From Crossiella sp. SN42 (GTDB taxonomy: Bacteria; Actinomycetota; Actinomycetes; Mycobacteriales; Pseudonocardiaceae), in assembly GCF_023897065.1 (NCBI RefSeq), contig NZ_JAMHIV010000007.1, positions 62,001-126,000 on the forward strand: a stretch of 64,000 bases of DNA. Direction: 5' to 3'. Each line of letters starts with the position of its first letter. Within the stretch, counting starts at the first letter, position 1. Positions 18,411-26,472 of the stretch are shown one piece after another. The notes beneath the pieces are model-generated. The model worked only from the letters and a program-made list of their open reading frames with translations. It ran no database searches and was not told the DNA's origin. The position numbers and the translations under genes were made by a program.

Positions 18411-20000
18411 ATGGACACCACCGCCCGGCGGCCGTGGCTGGGCATCCGCGGCTGGCGGCAGTGGAGCCTGGAGATCGGGCTCTACCTGCTGGTCGGGCTG
18501 TCCCTGCTGGTGCTGGAACTACCGCCGCACCCCGCGCTGCGGGTCTTCGCGCTGACGGTGATCCCGCTGTGCCTGTTCGCCCGCCGCCGCTACCCGGCCA
18601 CCGCGCTGGTGCTCAGCGCGCTGGGCGCGGGCGTGGTGGCGGTCCCGCTGGCCTACGGGGCGGGACGGCGGATCGGGTCGCTGTACCAGCTGCTCGGCGC
18701 GGCGCTGGGGCACTTCCTGCTGGCCGGGGCGGTGTCCCCGCTGTACTCCGAGAGCGTGCTGACCAGCATGCTGGTGCTGGGCATCAACGTGATCATGACG
18801 CTGCTGTTCGTCGGGGTGCCCGCGGTGCTGGGCCGCTCCAGCGCCCGGCGCGCCCTGCTGGTGGAGGCGCTGCGCGAACGCGCGGTCTACCTGGAACGGG
18901 AGCGCCGGTCGCTGGTCGCCGAGGCCCGGATCCGGGAACGCACCCGGATCGCGGTGGACATGCACGACAGCCTCGGCCACCACCTCACCCTGATCTCCCT
19001 GCAGGCAGGTGGGCTCAAGCTGGCCGCGCACGGCGACGCCGCCCAGGCCGAGGCCGCCGGGGTGCTGCACGACACCGCGCGGCGGGCCATGGAGGAGCTG
19101 CGGGAGATCATCGGCGTGCTCAGCCAGGACAGCGAGGACGCGCCGCTGCACGCCCGCCGCCTGGACCAGCTGCCCGAGCTGGTGGCCACCGCGCGCAGCA
19201 GCGGCACCCCGGTCACCCAGACCGAGACCGGCGAGCCGGTGCCGCTGCCCCGCCCGGTGGAGAACGCGATCTACCGGGTCGCCCAGGAAGGCCTGACCAA
19301 TGCGCTGCGGCACGCACCCGGCGGCGCGGTCGCCGTCCGGCTCAACTACGAGTCCGACGCGGTGATCACCGAGGTGGTCAACTCCCCCGCCACCGCACCA
19401 CCCCGCGGCGGCGGCAGCGGACAGGGCCTGACCGGGCTGCGCGAGCGGGTGCGGCTGGCCGGGGGCGTGCTGCACGCCGCGCGCACCCCCGAGGGCGGGT
19501 TCCGGCTGGCCGCGGTGCTGCCCTTCGACGGTGAACCAGCCGAGGCGGTGGCCGAGCTCGACGGCCCGCCCGCACCCGGCCCGGCCACCCATCCGCTGGC
19601 CCGCACCGAGGTCAGCAAGCTGCTGTCGACCATCCGGCACCGGCCGGTGCTCACCGGGCTGGCCATCACCGGGCTGGTGCTCATCAGCGCGCTCTCCTTC
19701 GCCGGGATAGTCGCCTGGGTGATCATCCGCAACGGCGTGCTGCTGGAGGCGGAGAAGTTCGACCAGATCCAGCCAGGGGAGACCGAACAGGTCATGGTGG
19801 AGCGCTTCGGCGAGGCCAGCCCGGGCGCTGAGCTGCGCATCGCCGACCAGAGCGGCCCGCCGCCGGAGGGCGCGCACTGCCGCTACTACTACGTCGACGG
19901 CTCCGAGCTGCCGCAGAACCGCACCGAGGCGTTCCGGTTCTGCTTCCAGGACGGCAAGTTGGCCCGGAAAGATCGGTTGGTGGTCAAGCGGCCGTTCTAG
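18411..20000 (+). CDS. Sensor histidine kinase with extra C-terminal membrane/extracytoplasmic domain
   Basis: 529 residues. Four to six N-terminal membrane helices (about 20-145) precede a NarL-type HisKA_3 dimerisation helix; VDMHDSLGHHL places the phosphorylated His at 185. The ATPase has YRVAQEGLTNALRHAPGG (N-box) and GQGLTGLRERV (G-box). Beyond about residue 400, where such kinases end, a membrane helix (about 412-435) and a roughly 90-residue tail follow, with FDQIQPGETEQ, PPPEGAHCRYYY and FRFCFQDG. The tail is similar to the stand-alone protein at 20839-21237 and shares its two Cys, suggesting an outside location. Cognate regulator is directly downstream. Confidence 0.9.
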   Translation: MDTTARRPWLGIRGWRQWSLEIGLYLLVGLSLLVLELPPHPALRVFALTVIPLCLFARRRYPATALVLSALGAGVVAVPLAYGAGRRIGSLYQLLGAALGHFLLAGAVSPLYSESVLTSMLVLGINVIMTLLFVGVPAVLGRSSARRALLVEALRERAVYLERERRSLVAEARIRERTRIAVDMHDSLGHHLTLISLQAGGLKLAAHGDAAQAEAAGVLHDTARRAMEELREIIGVLSQDSEDAPLHARRLDQLPELVATARSSGTPVTQTETGEPVPLPRPVENAIYRVAQEGLTNALRHAPGGAVAVRLNYESDAVITEVVNSPATAPPRGGGSGQGLTGLRERVRLAGGVLHAARTPEGGFRLAAVLPFDGEPAEAVAELDGPPAPGPATHPLARTEVSKLLSTIRHRPVLTGLAITGLVLISALSFAGIVAWVIIRNGVLLEAEKFDQIQPGETEQVMVERFGEASPGAELRIADQSGPPPEGAHCRYYYVDGSELPQNRTEAFRFCFQDGKLARKDRLVVKRPF

Positions 20001-20061
20001 TGTGCGAGCATCACCGGGCACGAATTTCAGGGCCGGACGCGGCCGGATGGTGGAGGCAGAC

Positions 20062-20718
20062 GTGGTCCGGGTGATCATCGCCGATGACGAGCCGCTGGTG
20101 CGGGCGGGCATCAAGCTCGTGCTCTCCGCGGCCGAGGACATCGAGGTGATCGCCGAGGCCGGGGACGGCCGCGCGGCCATCGCCGAGGTCACCGCCCGCT
20201 CCGCCGACGTGCTGCTGCTGGACATCCGCATGCCCGGCATGGACGGGTTGTCCGCGCTGGCCGAGCTGACCGGCCTGGCCCCCGGCACCAGGGTCGTCAT
20301 CCTGACCACCTTCGGCGAGTCGGAGTACATCGGCCGCGCCCTGGACGCCGGGGCGGCCGGGTTCCTGCTCAAGGACTCCGCGCCGGAGGAGCTGATCCGC
20401 GCGGTCCGGGTGGTCGCCGCCGGGGAGGCCTACCTCTCGCCCTCGGTGACCAAGTGGGTGATCAACCGGGTCTCGGCCACCGGCGGCAACGCCAAGGCGG
20501 TGGACGCCCAGCGCCGCATGGACGTGCTCACCGACCGCGAGCGCGAGGTCCTCGAACTGCTCGCCCAGGGCCTGTCCAACGCCGACATCGGCGGCAGGCT
20601 CTACATGAGCGAGGCCACCGTGAAGATGTACGTCAGCCGGGTGCTGGGCAAGCTCGACTGCTCGAACCGGGTGCAGGCCGCGATCCTGGCGCACGAGGCC
20701 GGGCTCGGTGGCACCTGA
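20062..20718 (+). CDS. NarL/LuxR-type response regulator
   Basis: 218 residues from GTG 20062, selected because GGAGG lies five bases upstream; ATG 20047 and an earlier GTG are in frame but lack a site. Receiver domain with acidic pair Asp8-Asp9 and phospho-acceptor Asp54 in LLLDIRMPGMDG, conserved TTF and LKD. C-terminal GerE/LuxR helix-turn-helix from about residue 156 (LTDREREVLELLAQGLSN then ATVKMYVSRVLGKL). Partner of the kinase at 18411-20000; likely controls the ABC exporter and perhaps the membrane protein downstream. Confidence 0.93.
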   Translation: MVRVIIADDEPLVRAGIKLVLSAAEDIEVIAEAGDGRAAIAEVTARSADVLLLDIRMPGMDGLSALAELTGLAPGTRVVILTTFGESEYIGRALDAGAAGFLLKDSAPEELIRAVRVVAAGEAYLSPSVTKWVINRVSATGGNAKAVDAQRRMDVLTDREREVLELLAQGLSNADIGGRLYMSEATVKMYVSRVLGKLDCSNRVQAAILAHEAGLGGT

Positions 20719-20838: not shown

Positions 20839-21237
20839 GTGATGAACCGGAAGGTCCGCAACGCACTCGGCATCGGTGTGGGTGTGGTGCTGACGGTGAC
20901 CCTGGTCGCCTTCGTCGCGGGCTGCTGGATCCTCAAGGCCTGGGAGGGCATGACCCTCACCCGCGGCGACTACGACTCGGTCGCGGTCGGCCAGACCAAG
21001 ACCGAGGCCGACCGGATCCTTCCGCACGGCGGCTCCAAGATGTTCGCCAGCTACCGCCAGCAGGGCCCGCCGCTGCCGCGCGGGGCCAAGTGCCGCCACT
21101 TCCTGTCCAAGGACGAGCAGGCCACGCTGCGCGGCGGGGTCGTGGTCTACCGGTTCTGCTTCGCCGCGGGCGCGGTGGTGGAGAAGAACCGGTTCGAGGC
21201 CGCCCGGGACAAGCGGACCAGCCAGCCCCGGTCCTGA
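20839..21237 (+). CDS. Membrane-anchored protein, paralogue of the kinase C-terminal domain
   Basis: 132 residues: one N-terminal membrane helix (about 10-32) and an extracytoplasmic domain. Not a family I can name. YDSVAVGQTKTEADRILP resembles the start of SmpA/BamE-like folds. The segments GPPLPRGAKCRHF and VVYRFCFAAG align with PPPEGAHCRYYY and AFRFCFQDG of the kinase tail at 18411-20000, including both Cys. GTG 20839 gives eight bases to an AAGGAA site; ATG 20842 is the alternative. Probably works with, or evolved from, the kinase sensor domain. Confidence 0.72.
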   Translation: MMNRKVRNALGIGVGVVLTVTLVAFVAGCWILKAWEGMTLTRGDYDSVAVGQTKTEADRILPHGGSKMFASYRQQGPPLPRGAKCRHFLSKDEQATLRGGVVVYRFCFAAGAVVEKNRFEAARDKRTSQPRS

Positions 21238-21271
21238 CCGCCGGCGCCCGCTGACTGTCGGTGCCTGCTGC

Positions 21272-21277
21272 CATAGT
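21272..21277 (+). promoter_or_regulatory. -10 hexamer CATAGT, leaderless ubiquitin-like gene
   Basis: CATAGT with a seven-base spacer to GTG 21285; matches A2 and T6 of the consensus. Confidence 0.35.
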
Positions 21278-21284
21278 CCGCGGC

Positions 21285-21608
21285 GTGGGGATGACAATCG
21301 TGGTGACCGACTCGACGCCGACCGGGCAGCAGACCGCCCGGCTGCTGCTGGCCGAGGTGCCCAGCCCGATCACGCTGCGGGAGCTGATCCGCTTCCGGGT
21401 GCGCGAGGAGGTGGCCCGGCGCAACGCCCGGACCACCGCCCGCCGGAACTGGGAGAGCGCCGCCGACACGGCGGTGCGGGCCTTCTCGCGCAACGGGTTC
21501 TTCGTCTTCGTCGGCGACCGGCAGGTCGATGACCTGGACGAGCCGCTGAGCCTGGCCGAGGCCGACGAGGTGAGCTTTGTCCGGCTGGTTCCGCTGGTGG
21601 GGGGCTGA
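21285..21608 (+). CDS. Small beta-grasp (ubiquitin/ThiS/MoaD-like) protein ending in Gly-Gly
   Basis: 107 residues from GTG 21285 (ATG 21291 is the alternative). A first strand TIVVTDS and ITLRELIRFRVREEVARRNA, a strand plus helix, are followed by FFVFVGDRQVDDLDEPLSLA and DEVSFVRLVPLVGG. The last part matches the logic of ThiS/MoaD and ubiquitin-like proteins: a turn, D/E-D-E-V-strand, and a C-terminal Gly-Gly that is the last codon pair before the stop. In those families the terminus is adenylated and thiocarboxylated or conjugated. No E1-, JAB- or ThiF-like gene is nearby. The DUF4132 gene starts one base after its stop, so the pair is translationally coupled. I recall similar small proteins beside DUF4132 genes in other actinomycetes, but cannot verify this here. 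Confidence 0.75.
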   Translation: MGMTIVVTDSTPTGQQTARLLLAEVPSPITLRELIRFRVREEVARRNARTTARRNWESAADTAVRAFSRNGFFVFVGDRQVDDLDEPLSLAEADEVSFVRLVPLVGG

Positions 21609-21609
21609 C

Positions 21610-23967
21610 GTGGGGTGGAAGGAACACGACGCGCGCGCCAAGGACCTGCTGGCACCGCTGCGCGCGGGCAGGCACGCGCAGTGGCGGGACAGCCTGGCCG
21701 GTGAGCCGCCGGAGCGGATCGGCTCGGCGCTGATGACGCTGGTGCGCCTGACCGCCACCGGGCGCTTCGACAGCCACTTCTGGCACGACCTGCGGGAGTC
21801 GGCGGCGGCCGCGCTGCGCAGACCGTTCACGGTCACCGCGGCCGAGGCCGAGCTCGCCGCCGGGGTCGCGGCCACGGCCACCTGCTCAGACCCGGTGGTG
21901 CCGTTCAAGATCGCCACCGCGCTGGCCGAACACGCCGGATCGGCGGCAGGCCTGCGGATCCTGGTGGCGGCGCTGGACGAACGGGCGGACCTGTTCCCCA
22001 GGGACCGCAGCGCGCTGCGGGCACGGATGGTCGCGGCCCTGCCGACGGACTCCGGCGAGCTGGACCTGTCCGTGGTGCTGCCGGTGGACGGCTGGTCCGC
22101 GGCGGTGCGCGCCGAACTGCCCGGCCACGACCACGCCGCCGCCACCGCGGTGCTGCGGCAGCTGGCCTCGGCCACCGGCAGCAAACCCGGCAAGGCCTGG
22201 TCCACCGCCACCGCCGCCCTGCTCGACGACCCCGCCGCGGCCGAGGTGCTGCGGATGCTGGTGGAGCGGGTGGCCGACGCCCCGGCGGTGCCCGGCAAGG
22301 ACCCCTGGGGCGAGTTCGAACCCATCGTGGTGGACGACCGCAACGCCGACGTGGTGCGCGCGGCGGCCTGGGCCGCGGCCGGGGTGCCAAGGGAGTGGGT
22401 GGTGCCCGCGCTCGTGGGTCTGGTGCGGCGGGCGATGAGCACCGAGGGCGGCTGGATCCCCAGCAAGAAGGTGGTCAACTCCGGCATCCTGGCCCTCGGC
22501 CTGCGCGGTGACGCCGAGGCCCTGCGCGCGCTGGCCAAGCTGGACACCACCACCAGGGACAACGGCGACCGCAAGCGGATCGCCGCCGCCCTGGAGATCG
22601 CGGGCGGCAAGCTCGGGCTCACCCCCGGCCAGCTCGCCGAGCAGCTGGTCGACCCGGCCGGGTTCGGCGCCGACGGGATCGCCGAGTACGCCGAGGACTC
22701 GGTGCGCGCCCGGCTCACGCTGGCCGAGGACCTGAAGCTGACCGTGCGCTGGCAGTCCGGCGCGGACTGGCTGGCCAAGCCGCCCGCGGACGCGCCGGAG
22801 GCGGCGGTGCGCGCGGTCAAGCGGCGGATCGCCGAGGCCAAGGCCACCATCGCGGCGGAGAAGCGGCGGATGGAGGGCCTGTTCGCCGAGGACCGCGAGT
22901 GGGCGCTGGCCGACTGGCGGCGGCACTACCTGGAGCACCCGATCACCGGCCGGATCGCCACCCGCCTGCTGTGGCGGATCGGCGGGACGACCGGGCTCCC
23001 GGCAGGCTCCCGGCTGCGCACCCTCGACGGCGAGGCCGAGCTGCCCGCCGAGGCCACGGTTCGGCTGTGGCACCCGGTGCGCGCGAGCACCGAGGAGGTC
23101 GCCGCCTGGCGAACCTGGTTGCTGGACAAGGAGTTCCGCCAGCCGACCAAACAGGCCTTCCGCGAGGTGTACCCGCTCACCGAGGCCGAACGCGCCACCG
23201 GCACCTACTCCAACCGCTTCGCCGCGCACATCCTGCGCTACGGCCAGACCTACGCCCTGTTCAAGGAACGCGGCTGGCCCGCCAACTACCTCGGCCCCTA
23301 CGACGGCGGCTACGAAGGCCGGGCCCGGCGGGAGTTCCGGGACGCGGGCGTGGTCGCGGTCTTCGAACACTTCCCGGTGGACCCGAACTACCCCGGCCCG
23401 CCCCAGCTGTGCTCCACCGACCGCGTCTGGTTCCACCGCGCCGGCGACCGCGGCCAGACCCCGCTGGCCCTGACCGAGGTCCCGGAGCTGGTGTTCACCG
23501 AGGCCATGCGCGATGTCGACCTCTTCACCGGGGTCTGCTCCATCGCCCTGGACCCGGACTGGGCCGACCGCGGCCAGGACGCCCACCACGACTACTGGCA
23601 GCGGGTCTCCTTCGGCGCGCTGAGCGCACTGGCCGAGGTGCGCAGGGACGTGCTCGCCCGCCTGCTGCCCAAGCTCGCCGTGGCCGACCGGGTGGAGCTG
23701 ACCGACCGGTTCGTCCGGGTGCGCGGCCGCCTCGCCACCTACCGGGTGCACCTCGGCTCGGCCAACATCCTCATCGAACCCGACGACCGCTACCTGTGCG
23801 TGGTGCCCAGTGGCCGGGCCAAGGGCGGCAAGGTGCACCTGCCCTTCGAGGGCGACGAGCTGCTCAGCGTGATCCTGTCCAAGGTGCTGCTGCTGGCCGC
23901 CGACGACAAGATCACCGACCCGGCCATCACCAGCCAGCTGGCCCTGCGGAAGCGGATCGAAGCCTGA
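21610..23967 (+). CDS. DUF4132 (MolR-like) protein
   Basis: 785 residues from GTG 21610. N-terminal two thirds are helical repeat-like (Ala/Leu-rich, residues about 40-400). The C-terminal half contains the DUF4132 signature: WRHHY-like DWRRHYLEHPITGRIA, LLDKEFRQPTKQAFREVYPL, YSNRFAAHILRY and a closing HLGSANILIEPDDRYLCVVP strand pair. DUF4132/MolR proteins have no established activity and are often next to other regulators of unknown function. Coupling to the Gly-Gly protein suggests it is a partner, possibly the target, ligase or receptor of that protein (inference). Confidence 0.85.
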   Translation: MGWKEHDARAKDLLAPLRAGRHAQWRDSLAGEPPERIGSALMTLVRLTATGRFDSHFWHDLRESAAAALRRPFTVTAAEAELAAGVAATATCSDPVVPFKIATALAEHAGSAAGLRILVAALDERADLFPRDRSALRARMVAALPTDSGELDLSVVLPVDGWSAAVRAELPGHDHAAATAVLRQLASATGSKPGKAWSTATAALLDDPAAAEVLRMLVERVADAPAVPGKDPWGEFEPIVVDDRNADVVRAAAWAAAGVPREWVVPALVGLVRRAMSTEGGWIPSKKVVNSGILALGLRGDAEALRALAKLDTTTRDNGDRKRIAAALEIAGGKLGLTPGQLAEQLVDPAGFGADGIAEYAEDSVRARLTLAEDLKLTVRWQSGADWLAKPPADAPEAAVRAVKRRIAEAKATIAAEKRRMEGLFAEDREWALADWRRHYLEHPITGRIATRLLWRIGGTTGLPAGSRLRTLDGEAELPAEATVRLWHPVRASTEEVAAWRTWLLDKEFRQPTKQAFREVYPLTEAERATGTYSNRFAAHILRYGQTYALFKERGWPANYLGPYDGGYEGRARREFRDAGVVAVFEHFPVDPNYPGPPQLCSTDRVWFHRAGDRGQTPLALTEVPELVFTEAMRDVDLFTGVCSIALDPDWADRGQDAHHDYWQRVSFGALSALAEVRRDVLARLLPKLAVADRVELTDRFVRVRGRLATYRVHLGSANILIEPDDRYLCVVPSGRAKGGKVHLPFEGDELLSVILSKVLLLAADDKITDPAITSQLALRKRIEA

Positions 23968-24056
23968 CGAGTGACCTGCCAAACTGGTTGGGGGACCGGA
24001 ATGGACTACGTGCGGGAATCGAGGCGGGTCCTCGGCTCACGTCCGCCGGCGGCGTC

Positions 24057-25197: not shown

Positions 25198-26472
25198 CTA
25201 GGCCTCGCCGCTGACGGTGCTGGGCACCGGTTCGCACGGCAGGTCCATCACCACCACGGTGGGTCCGCCGAGTGGGCTGGTCACCATCACCCGGCCGTCG
25301 AAGGCGGAGAGCCGGCGTTCGATGCCGCGCAGGCCGGTGCCGCCGCTGGCGTCGGCTCCGCCCTGGCCGTCGTCGCCGACCAGCACGTGCAGCTGGCCAT
25401 CGGAGTGGGTCAGCCGGACCCAGGCCTTGGCCGCGCCGCTGTGCTTGACCACGTTGGTCAGCGCCTCGGCCACCGCGAAGTAGGCCGCGGACTCCACCGG
25501 GGCGGGCAGTCTGCCGGGTAGTTCGATCTCCACGTCGGTGGGCAGGGGGTTGGCCATCACCAGTGCCTGGACCGCGCCGGCCAGGCCGCGGTCGGCCAGC
25601 ACCGGCGGGTGGATGCCGCGCACCAGGTCCCGGAGCTCGGCCAGGGCCTGGGTGTTGGCCTGGCGGGCCTCGGCCAGGAGCTCCTGGGCCGCTTGGGGGT
25701 CCTTGGTCATGAGTTGTTCGGCCATACCCAGGCTCATACCCATGGCCACCATCCTGGCCTGGGCGCCGTCGTGCAGGTCGCGCTCGATCCGGCGCAGCTC
25801 GGCGGCCTGGGTGTCCACCGCGTCCGCCCGCGACTCCGACAGCTCGCGCACCCTGGTGACCAGCATGGTCTTCTCGGTGGGCGCCAGCAGCATCCTGGCC
25901 AGGCTGGCGTAGCCGCGGAAGATCCACTGGCTACCGATGTACCACAGCGCCAGGTAGACGATGCCGTGCCCGGTGCCGACGAAGAACGCGCTGGACCAGG
26001 AGTCGATGGTCCAGAAGGTCAGGCTGAAGCTGGCTCCGTCGGGCAGGAACGGCCAGATCAACCAGGGCAGCGCGATGATCCCGCCCAGCCCGGCGAAGAA
26101 CAGGGCCAGGGTGACCGAGCAGGCCGCGATCGAGGCGACCAGGTTCAGCGGCAGCCAGGCGAAGTCGCGCCAGCTGGCCGGGTCGGTCATCACGTGCCGC
26201 AGCAGCCGGAAGAAGCCCTTGTTCGTGCGCAGCCGGTACGGGCGGCCGATCCGGACCCCCAGCACCGCGCCGGCCCAGCGGCGGTGCAGGTCGTTGTAGC
26301 CGCGCAGGACCGCGAAGCACAGCACCGACATCGGCAGGCCCAGCCACACCGTGTACAGCGCGAAGGAGGCGATCACCAACCCGAACAGCACCATGCCCAG
26401 CGCGGCGTACACCAGCAGCGGGATCGTCCAGGACAACAGGGCGAACCTGCCAACGCGGTGTGCCACGGCCAT
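25198..26472 (-). CDS. Orphan NarL-type sensor histidine kinase
   Basis: 424 residues. Four membrane helices in the first 190 residues, then a HisKA_3 helix with ELRRIERDLHDGAQARMVAM (His in LHDGAQ) and an ATPase domain with an N-box-like FAVAEALTNVVKHSG and GDDGQGG, GGTGLRGIERRL. This resembles the short DesK/NarX-like actinobacterial kinases. No response regulator is adjacent, so the partner must be encoded elsewhere. A GGGAGGA ribosome site precedes ATG 26472. Confidence 0.9.
   Translation of the reverse strand: MAVAHRVGRFALLSWTIPLLVYAALGMVLFGLVIASFALYTVWLGLPMSVLCFAVLRGYNDLHRRWAGAVLGVRIGRPYRLRTNKGFFRLLRHVMTDPASWRDFAWLPLNLVASIAACSVTLALFFAGLGGIIALPWLIWPFLPDGASFSLTFWTIDSWSSAFFVGTGHGIVYLALWYIGSQWIFRGYASLARMLLAPTEKTMLVTRVRELSESRADAVDTQAAELRRIERDLHDGAQARMVAMGMSLGMAEQLMTKDPQAAQELLAEARQANTQALAELRDLVRGIHPPVLADRGLAGAVQALVMANPLPTDVEIELPGRLPAPVESAAYFAVAEALTNVVKHSGAAKAWVRLTHSDGQLHVLVGDDGQGGADASGGTGLRGIERRLSAFDGRVMVTSPLGGPTVVVMDLPCEPVPSTVSGEA

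Follow-up and report, generated by a model that had tools for sequence, protein, structure and literature searches.

Two adjacent genes on the forward strand of a 64,000-nucleotide stretch of Crossiella sp. SN42 (contig NZ_JAMHIV010000007.1, positions 62,001 to 126,000; the whole stretch is termed the window) encode a small protein that ends in Gly-Gly and is predicted to adopt a ubiquitin-like β-grasp fold, and a large partner that carries a DUF4132 domain and a C-terminal DUF7737 domain. The best explanation of the genome comparisons described here is that the two genes encode a pair of proteins working together, and the distribution of Cys730, a near-invariant cysteine of DUF7737, suggests that the Gly-Gly tail works at this residue. 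The computed basis of this account is the fold prediction, the Gly-Gly terminus, the genome-wide pairing of the two genes, and the near-invariance of the cysteine together with its co-loss with Gly-Gly. An earlier interpretation made from the DNA alone (the sequence-only reading) had proposed an undescribed ubiquitin-like system of a 107-residue Gly-Gly protein and a DUF4132 protein.

The open reading frame (ORF) at 21285-21608 of the forward strand has a translation ending ...DEVSFVRLVPLVGG*. The Gly-Gly end of the sequence-only reading stands, but its length does not: alignment with relatives places the start of the small gene at the ATG at 21291 (105 residues) and not at the GTG at 21285 (107 residues). 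The partner gene does begin one base past the small-gene stop, as had been noted, the stop ending at 21608 and the partner starting at 21610. Relatives were gathered in a species-level scan with two peptide patterns, of which one extends into the C-terminal region (..LV[PA]LV) but stops short of Gly-Gly, and the best 80 of 289 relatives, headed by a match in a Crossiella strain, were analyzed as loci. Gly-Gly stands immediately before the stop codon in all 80; of the 134 distinct closed ORFs of the family, 119 end in this way and 15 do not. Gly-Gly is thus conserved in nearly all relatives that adjoin the partner, but some homologues lack Gly-Gly or carry residues after it. Most family members are ~130 residues long; the window protein is without a ~24-residue segment that lies between the two helices of most relatives. 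The 80 loci come mainly from Actinomycetota and also from Chloroflexota, Verrucomicrobiota, Planctomycetota, Armatimonadota, and one cyanobacterium, and further members are found in Deinococcus, Novosphingobium, and Bacteroides. The family, which bears no Pfam or NCBIfam name, is present in nine phyla, and so is the gene pair.

The pairing of the two genes was surveyed in both directions in two phyla. Among 396 genomes of Actinomycetota, the phylum of the window, the family profile matches 18 and DUF7737 matches 10. These 10 are exactly the genomes with a Gly-Gly-ending member, and the pair is adjacent, on the same contig and strand, in all of them, one of the small genes (in G481) being intact at its end but carrying an in-frame stop further upstream. 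The remaining eight family members end SGS, SAS, AEA, GDA, RDA, RSG, or RRG and occur in genomes without DUF7737. Similarly, DUF7737 is present in five of 194 Verrucomicrobiota genomes and the family profile in the same five, always adjacent and sharing contig and strand, with four small proteins ending in Gly-Gly and one in AGRMW. In the 588 genomes that remain when the two centre genomes are left out, all 13 genomes with DUF7737 fall within the 21 with a family member (naive p 1.4e-21, a probability that counts all family members and ignores relatedness). This co-occurrence in 396 and 194 genomes rules out a chance Gly-Gly or an unrelated neighbour. Seen from the small gene, 22 of 23 genomes that hold it also have DUF7737, including nine of the ten that lack an intact partner gene at the locus; the sole genome with no DUF7737 match is a metagenome-assembled genome (MAG) of Acidimicrobiales.

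Three further phyla were searched for DUF7737 only, and the small gene was read upstream. Of 226 genomes around a Phycisphaerae MAG, 14 have DUF7737, and in 11 of these a Gly-Gly small protein lies beside it; the other three comprise a contig edge, a case below the cut-off, and a partner that lacks the cysteine and has no small protein. In the set around Lyngbya (six of 214 genomes) the count is four of six, the rest being one contig edge and one cysteine-less partner without a small protein, and in the set around a Chloroflexi MAG (five of 221) it is three of five, the other two small proteins ending GGA and GGSA. The expectation that the link to DUF4132 would prove conserved is thus borne out, by adjacency and co-occurrence in the two phyla surveyed both ways and by the presence of the pair in nine.

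Clustering of neighbouring genes in 81 loci (the 80 relatives and the window) recovers the small gene in 75 and the large partner in 71, with the next most common cluster in 11. A three-gene system was rejected, as no third conserved cluster emerged, and the lack of a recurrent third gene means that no E1, E2, or protease travels with the pair. Across the 80 loci, an ORF with DUF7737 follows the small gene on the same strand in 65 (at L088 as a remnant only), elsewhere in the stretch in five, and nowhere in the stretch in ten, some of these stretches ending early. No ORF matched both profiles, as a natural fusion of the small protein with the partner would.

Cys730 is shared by all 56 aligned partners and, in the AlphaFold2 model of the partner, follows directly on a strand, with a poorly ordered loop a short way beyond. 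The corresponding position could be read in 126 distinct partners, 121 of which have the cysteine and five of which do not. Upstream of the 121, small proteins end in Gly-Gly in 88 cases and in GGA or GGSA in two, one small gene is broken, and in 30 none is recognized in the stretch available. Upstream of the five, two small proteins end AGRMW or LLAGA and three are absent, one of these at a contig edge. Named replicons add five pairs with both cysteine and Gly-Gly (four from Deinococcus and one from Novosphingobium), a cysteine-less pair of Bacteroides finegoldii in which the small protein ends SGRLW, and a cysteine-less partner of Acetobacter pasteurianus without a small protein. None of the resulting seven cysteine-less partners adjoins a Gly-Gly protein: three have a small protein with another end, three have none in the stretch, and one, the only case that cannot be judged, is at a contig edge. 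A profile search of the four cysteine-less stretches without a small protein, which covered these stretches and not whole genomes, returned nothing at E up to 1. Elsewhere in DUF4132 and DUF7737 the cysteine-less partners retain most conserved residues, which argues that loss of the cysteine is not general decay; the partners at L225 and L232 are more diverged. As an observation on the tail itself, a GRLW or GRMW end takes the place of Gly-Gly at L251 (B. finegoldii) and L167 (Verrucomicrobiota), each beside a cysteine-less partner.

In a tree of 85 partners, built with the column of the cysteine retained, the cysteine changes four times by parsimony, and three of these changes are forced by well-supported branches. 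A plain one-sided Fisher test of cysteine against Gly-Gly in 99 pairs gives 1.3e-4, yet the tree offers only one or two independent comparisons. The link was for this reason not accepted as statistically proven, no significance can be claimed for it, and the weight falls on its direction and specificity. We infer that the Gly-Gly tail acts at Cys730, because the cysteine is near-invariant and the partners without it have no Gly-Gly protein beside them.

The AlphaFold2 model of the small protein, built with 41 sequences, has a predicted local distance difference test (pLDDT) score of 87.5 and elements in the order strand-strand-helix-helix-strand-strand-strand; pLDDT drops to 53 over the final block, a low-confidence tail. 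The 50 Foldseek matches listed are mostly SUMO, ubiquitin, ISG15, and MoaD proteins (one is a PI3K complex), and the best fit among them is human MOCS2A (5mpo), with a template modeling (TM) score of 0.62 by target length. The small protein is accordingly predicted to have a β-grasp (ubiquitin/MoaD) fold with a flexible Gly-Gly tail. The β-grasp fold that had been proposed by pattern is thus also the predicted one, with a MoaD homologue as its closest fit. Sequence profiles alone link the family neither to ubiquitin nor to a ThiS/MoaD family. No Pfam or NCBIfam family matches the window protein over the cut-off, and a Pfam scan of 41 members at E up to 10, in which filters drop most matches above about 0.1, lists nine families without MoaD or ThiS. 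Kinship with baeRF or LpoB, raised by weak profile matches, was rejected, the matches lying below the cut-off and that to baeRF occurring in one of 41 members.

The partner combines a mostly helical, repeat-like N-terminal part with the two named domains, and both DUF4132 and DUF7737 are found in each of ten diverse partners scanned. Its Foldseek matches (E 1.4e-3 and weaker) are designed-repeat, armadillo, and HEAT-type proteins, the whole-protein search being swamped by the helical repeat. The window genome holds two DUF4132 genes and one DUF7737; the second DUF4132 protein ends before any DUF7737 and is missing several conserved residues. Among 14 control genomes, DUF7737 matches none and DUF4132 two, one of them above the cut-off. 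Because the second DUF4132 gene lacks DUF7737 and the controls separate the two domains, the link is specific to the DUF7737 subtype: the coupling to DUF4132 in the sequence-only reading gains genome-wide support for proteins bearing DUF7737 but does not extend to DUF4132/MolR proteins in general. The HLGS.NI....YLC segment of DUF7737 and the helices after it resemble the E2 motif HPNI..G.ICL, a resemblance that is not claimed to make the domain an E2. DUF7737 as an E2 (UBC) domain was rejected on sequence comparison, the fold of the isolated domain not having been searched: hhalign gave a probability of 0.2% against three human E2s, and the PDB held no sequence match. In Herbidospora and Nonomuraea (L056, L060, L062, L068), two partner-type genes follow one small gene in tandem.

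A homologous pair has been studied in Deinococcus radiodurans. In the DRR11 record, a 134-residue protein ending LTALAGG adjoins a 1626-residue DUF4132 protein; the C-terminal region of the latter fits the partner profile and retains the cysteine. Judging by gene order and by the operator in print, this pair is presumably DR_A0165 (SEP068184) and DR_A0166. The Gly-Gly end and the partner cysteine are the same as in the window pair, but the partner is larger than the 785 residues of the window protein; two similar large partners scanned carry DUF5724. PMC8533742 lists the drA0165-drA0166 operon among the targets of DdrO, prints its operator, and reports that DRA0166 protein rises after mitomycin C in an IrrE-dependent manner. 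The operator is present without mismatch in DRR11 (L248:783-802), 63-82 bases before the annotated start of the small gene. PMC9650054, which reported the knockout in 2022, describes a higher antioxidant capacity on deletion of DR_A0165, 157 proteins that co-purify with its tagged forms, and its binding to thioredoxin 1; there, the protein is called MoaD/SAMP1-like, confined to Deinococcus, and outside the radiation regulon, with no upstream operator. As the family occurs in nine phyla and DRR11 carries the operator, the statements on range and operator need revision. The description of the system as undescribed is in turn only partly true, since this homologue had already been knocked out and called MoaD-like (PMC9650054).

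Taken together, the leading reading of these data, to which we assign a probability of about 0.5, is that the small protein serves as a ubiquitin-like modifier and that its flexible Gly-Gly tail would dock on DUF7737 at Cys730. The tail would be activated in trans by a cellular ThiF/MoeB-type (E1-like) enzyme, which is possible because five ThiF-family matches lie elsewhere in the window genome, and then be passed to Cys730 as a thioester. The partner, through its helical arm and DUF4132 site, might hand the tail on to a target or retain it as a switch within a stress response. Covalent transfer of the tail is plausible. A wider proposal is tentative: DUF7737 may be a new ubiquitin-transfer domain that forms a cysteine thioester and is unrelated in sequence to UBC, HECT, and RING, with the DUF4132 protein delivering the modifier in stress and DNA-damage responses of many phyla.

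Several observations weigh against a modifier that is transferred through Cys730. No third gene recurs near the pair (at most 11 of 81 loci; rarer clusters were not annotated singly), and DUF7737, like the partner as a whole, shows no sequence resemblance to known transferases. All listed Foldseek E-values are 0.015 or weaker, none reaching 0.001, and the first-ranked match (E 0.015) is a Staphylococcus aureus EapH1 complex and not a ubiquitin-like modifier. The 30 cysteine-bearing partners without a recognized upstream small gene also count here; some of their stretches are short, several are solo paralogues, and they include loci with the two genes in another order or orientation. Two cysteine-bearing pairs have one or two residues past Gly-Gly. 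The co-loss amounts to about four cysteine changes, two of them with a small protein to compare, which is too few for a sign test. In PMC9650054, C-tagged and N-tagged DR_A0165 share the 157 co-purifying proteins, a result that does not call for a free Gly-Gly.

Part of this evidence is also what a non-covalent pair would show, in which the small protein is a regulatory subunit, its tail lies in a cysteine-lined groove, and Gly-Gly and the cysteine are kept for packing. We consider this somewhat unlikely. It accommodates the absence of a recurrent activating-enzyme gene, the co-purification that survived a C-terminal tag in Deinococcus (PMC9650054), and the side branch that retains the pair with a GRMW or GRLW tail and no cysteine, such that the pair persists without either. 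Packing, however, poorly explains why two glycines should be terminal in 119 of 134 ORFs, and it is hard to reconcile with a cysteine that changes while most of its conserved neighbours stay. A sulfur carrier with a thiocarboxylate tail, as in MoaD, ThiS, and Urm1, and with the DUF7737 cysteine helping to pass sulfur to a cofactor, RNA, or enzyme, would suit the MoaD homologue found as the closest model fit, the naming of MOCS2 and SAMP1 in the Deinococcus study, and the thioredoxin that is encoded by the next gene upstream in D. radiodurans and was reported in PMC9650054 to bind DR_A0165. We regard the sulfur carrier as unlikely, as no third gene recurs nearby, Pfam recognizes no cofactor- or RNA-binding domain in the window partner or ten others, and the paper that suggested molybdopterin for DUF4132 saw no differential expression of moeA or moeB (PMC8533742). 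That an orphan small protein with a chance Gly-Gly merely sits beside a DUF4132 gene is scarcely credible. Nothing was found in favour of this explanation; the pair is uncommon (10 of the 396 Actinomycetota genomes). Against it stand the co-occurrence and adjacency in both phyla surveyed and the spread of the pair over nine.

The window pair shares features with several known systems. Like MoaD, ThiS, Urm1, and SAMP, the small protein combines a predicted β-grasp with a C-terminal Gly-Gly, but its family (41 members scanned) has no Pfam match to theirs, its model has an extra helix, and it goes with a DUF4132-DUF7737 partner and no further recurrent gene. Among the bacterial ubiquitin-like operons with E1, E2, and/or JAB are Bil and type II CBASS (cyclic oligonucleotide-based antiphage signaling system). 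Others are described in Iyer 2006 (PMC1779556). A Gly-Gly β-grasp protein in a conserved operon is common to these operons and the window pair; unlike in them, no E1, E2, or JAB gene recurs beside the pair, and the small protein has a single partner drawn from other families. DUF4132 proteins of the MolR/YehI type, named in part in PMC8533742, have the DUF4132 domain in common with the window partner, which differs in its added DUF7737 and in the lack of a WGR match in Pfam at E up to 1. The literature searched, which excluded most subscription journals and bioRxiv preprints, holds no account of the small family, its pairing with DUF7737, or the link to the cysteine. The features of the pair are collected in Table 1.

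Table 1. Features of the gene pair in window coordinates.
Feature	Position	Strand	Evidence
Small gene, predicted ubiquitin-like β-grasp protein, 105 aa, ATG start	21291..21608	+	Translation; start by alignment with relatives; AlphaFold2 pLDDT 87.5
C-terminal Gly-Gly codons directly 5' of stop	21600..21605	+	Sequence; Gly-Gly ends 80/80 loci, 119/134 distinct closed family ORFs
Partner gene, 785 aa, GTG start, one base after small gene	21610..23967	+	Sequence; AlphaFold2 pLDDT 90.5
Mostly helical N-terminal part, ~residues 1-390, repeat-like	21610..22779	+	Model secondary structure; weak Foldseek matches
DUF4132 domain, residues 395-556, many invariant polar residues	22792..23277	+	Pfam PF13569, 142.5 bits (cut-off 27); invariant columns
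DUF7737 domain, residues 675-777	23632..23940	+	Pfam PF24879, 133.4 bits (cut-off 27)
Cys730 codon, candidate site for Gly-Gly tail	23797..23799	+	Sequence; invariant in 56/56 aligned partners; Cys-less partners without adjacent Gly-Gly protein

Two long ORFs lie antisense to the pair on the minus strand, at 21147-22850 (567 residues) and 21886-23982 (698 residues), and are probably shadows cast by coding sequence of high G+C content. Upstream (18411-20718) lie genes for a histidine kinase and for a response regulator of the LuxR type, and another histidine kinase is encoded downstream on the other strand (25198-26472). The upstream kinase and regulator are not counted as part of the system, because their clusters occur in just 7 and 10 of 81 loci. 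Anti-phage defence and plasmid cargo were considered and rejected. Five proteins gave no PADLOC match at E up to 1, and one small-protein query had no match in the phage collection; in the plasmid collection, the same query matched a single record, an 11.85-Mb replicon, and the partner query matched 35 records, none covering 80% of the partner.

The small family shows further variation. In an actinobacterial branch (f30; L118-L123, L125, L126, L242, L243), the small protein is kept but lacks Gly-Gly, and the genomes have no DUF7737. In another branch (L015, L016, L244), the small protein ends RFVRLVPLAD and the next gene is amidase-like by eye only; no DUF7737 ORF was found in the 12 kb around one locus of this branch. 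L246 (G506, Verrucomicrobiota) has the small gene in three successive copies, two full-length and one shortened, upstream of a single partner gene. L176, L234, L113, and L088 include degenerate or interrupted small genes next to partners, as well as an intact small gene next to what remains of a partner.

For DUF4132 and DUF7737, the pairing supplies a partner, a candidate active residue, and a chemistry that can be tested. The question is testable in D. radiodurans, a laboratory organism in which the pair lies behind a DNA-damage operator known from the literature and a strain deleted for the small gene has been described. If the tail works through the DUF7737 cysteine, the pair would represent a widespread bacterial two-protein ubiquitin-like system that operates with no dedicated adjacent gene for an E1, an E2, or a protease.

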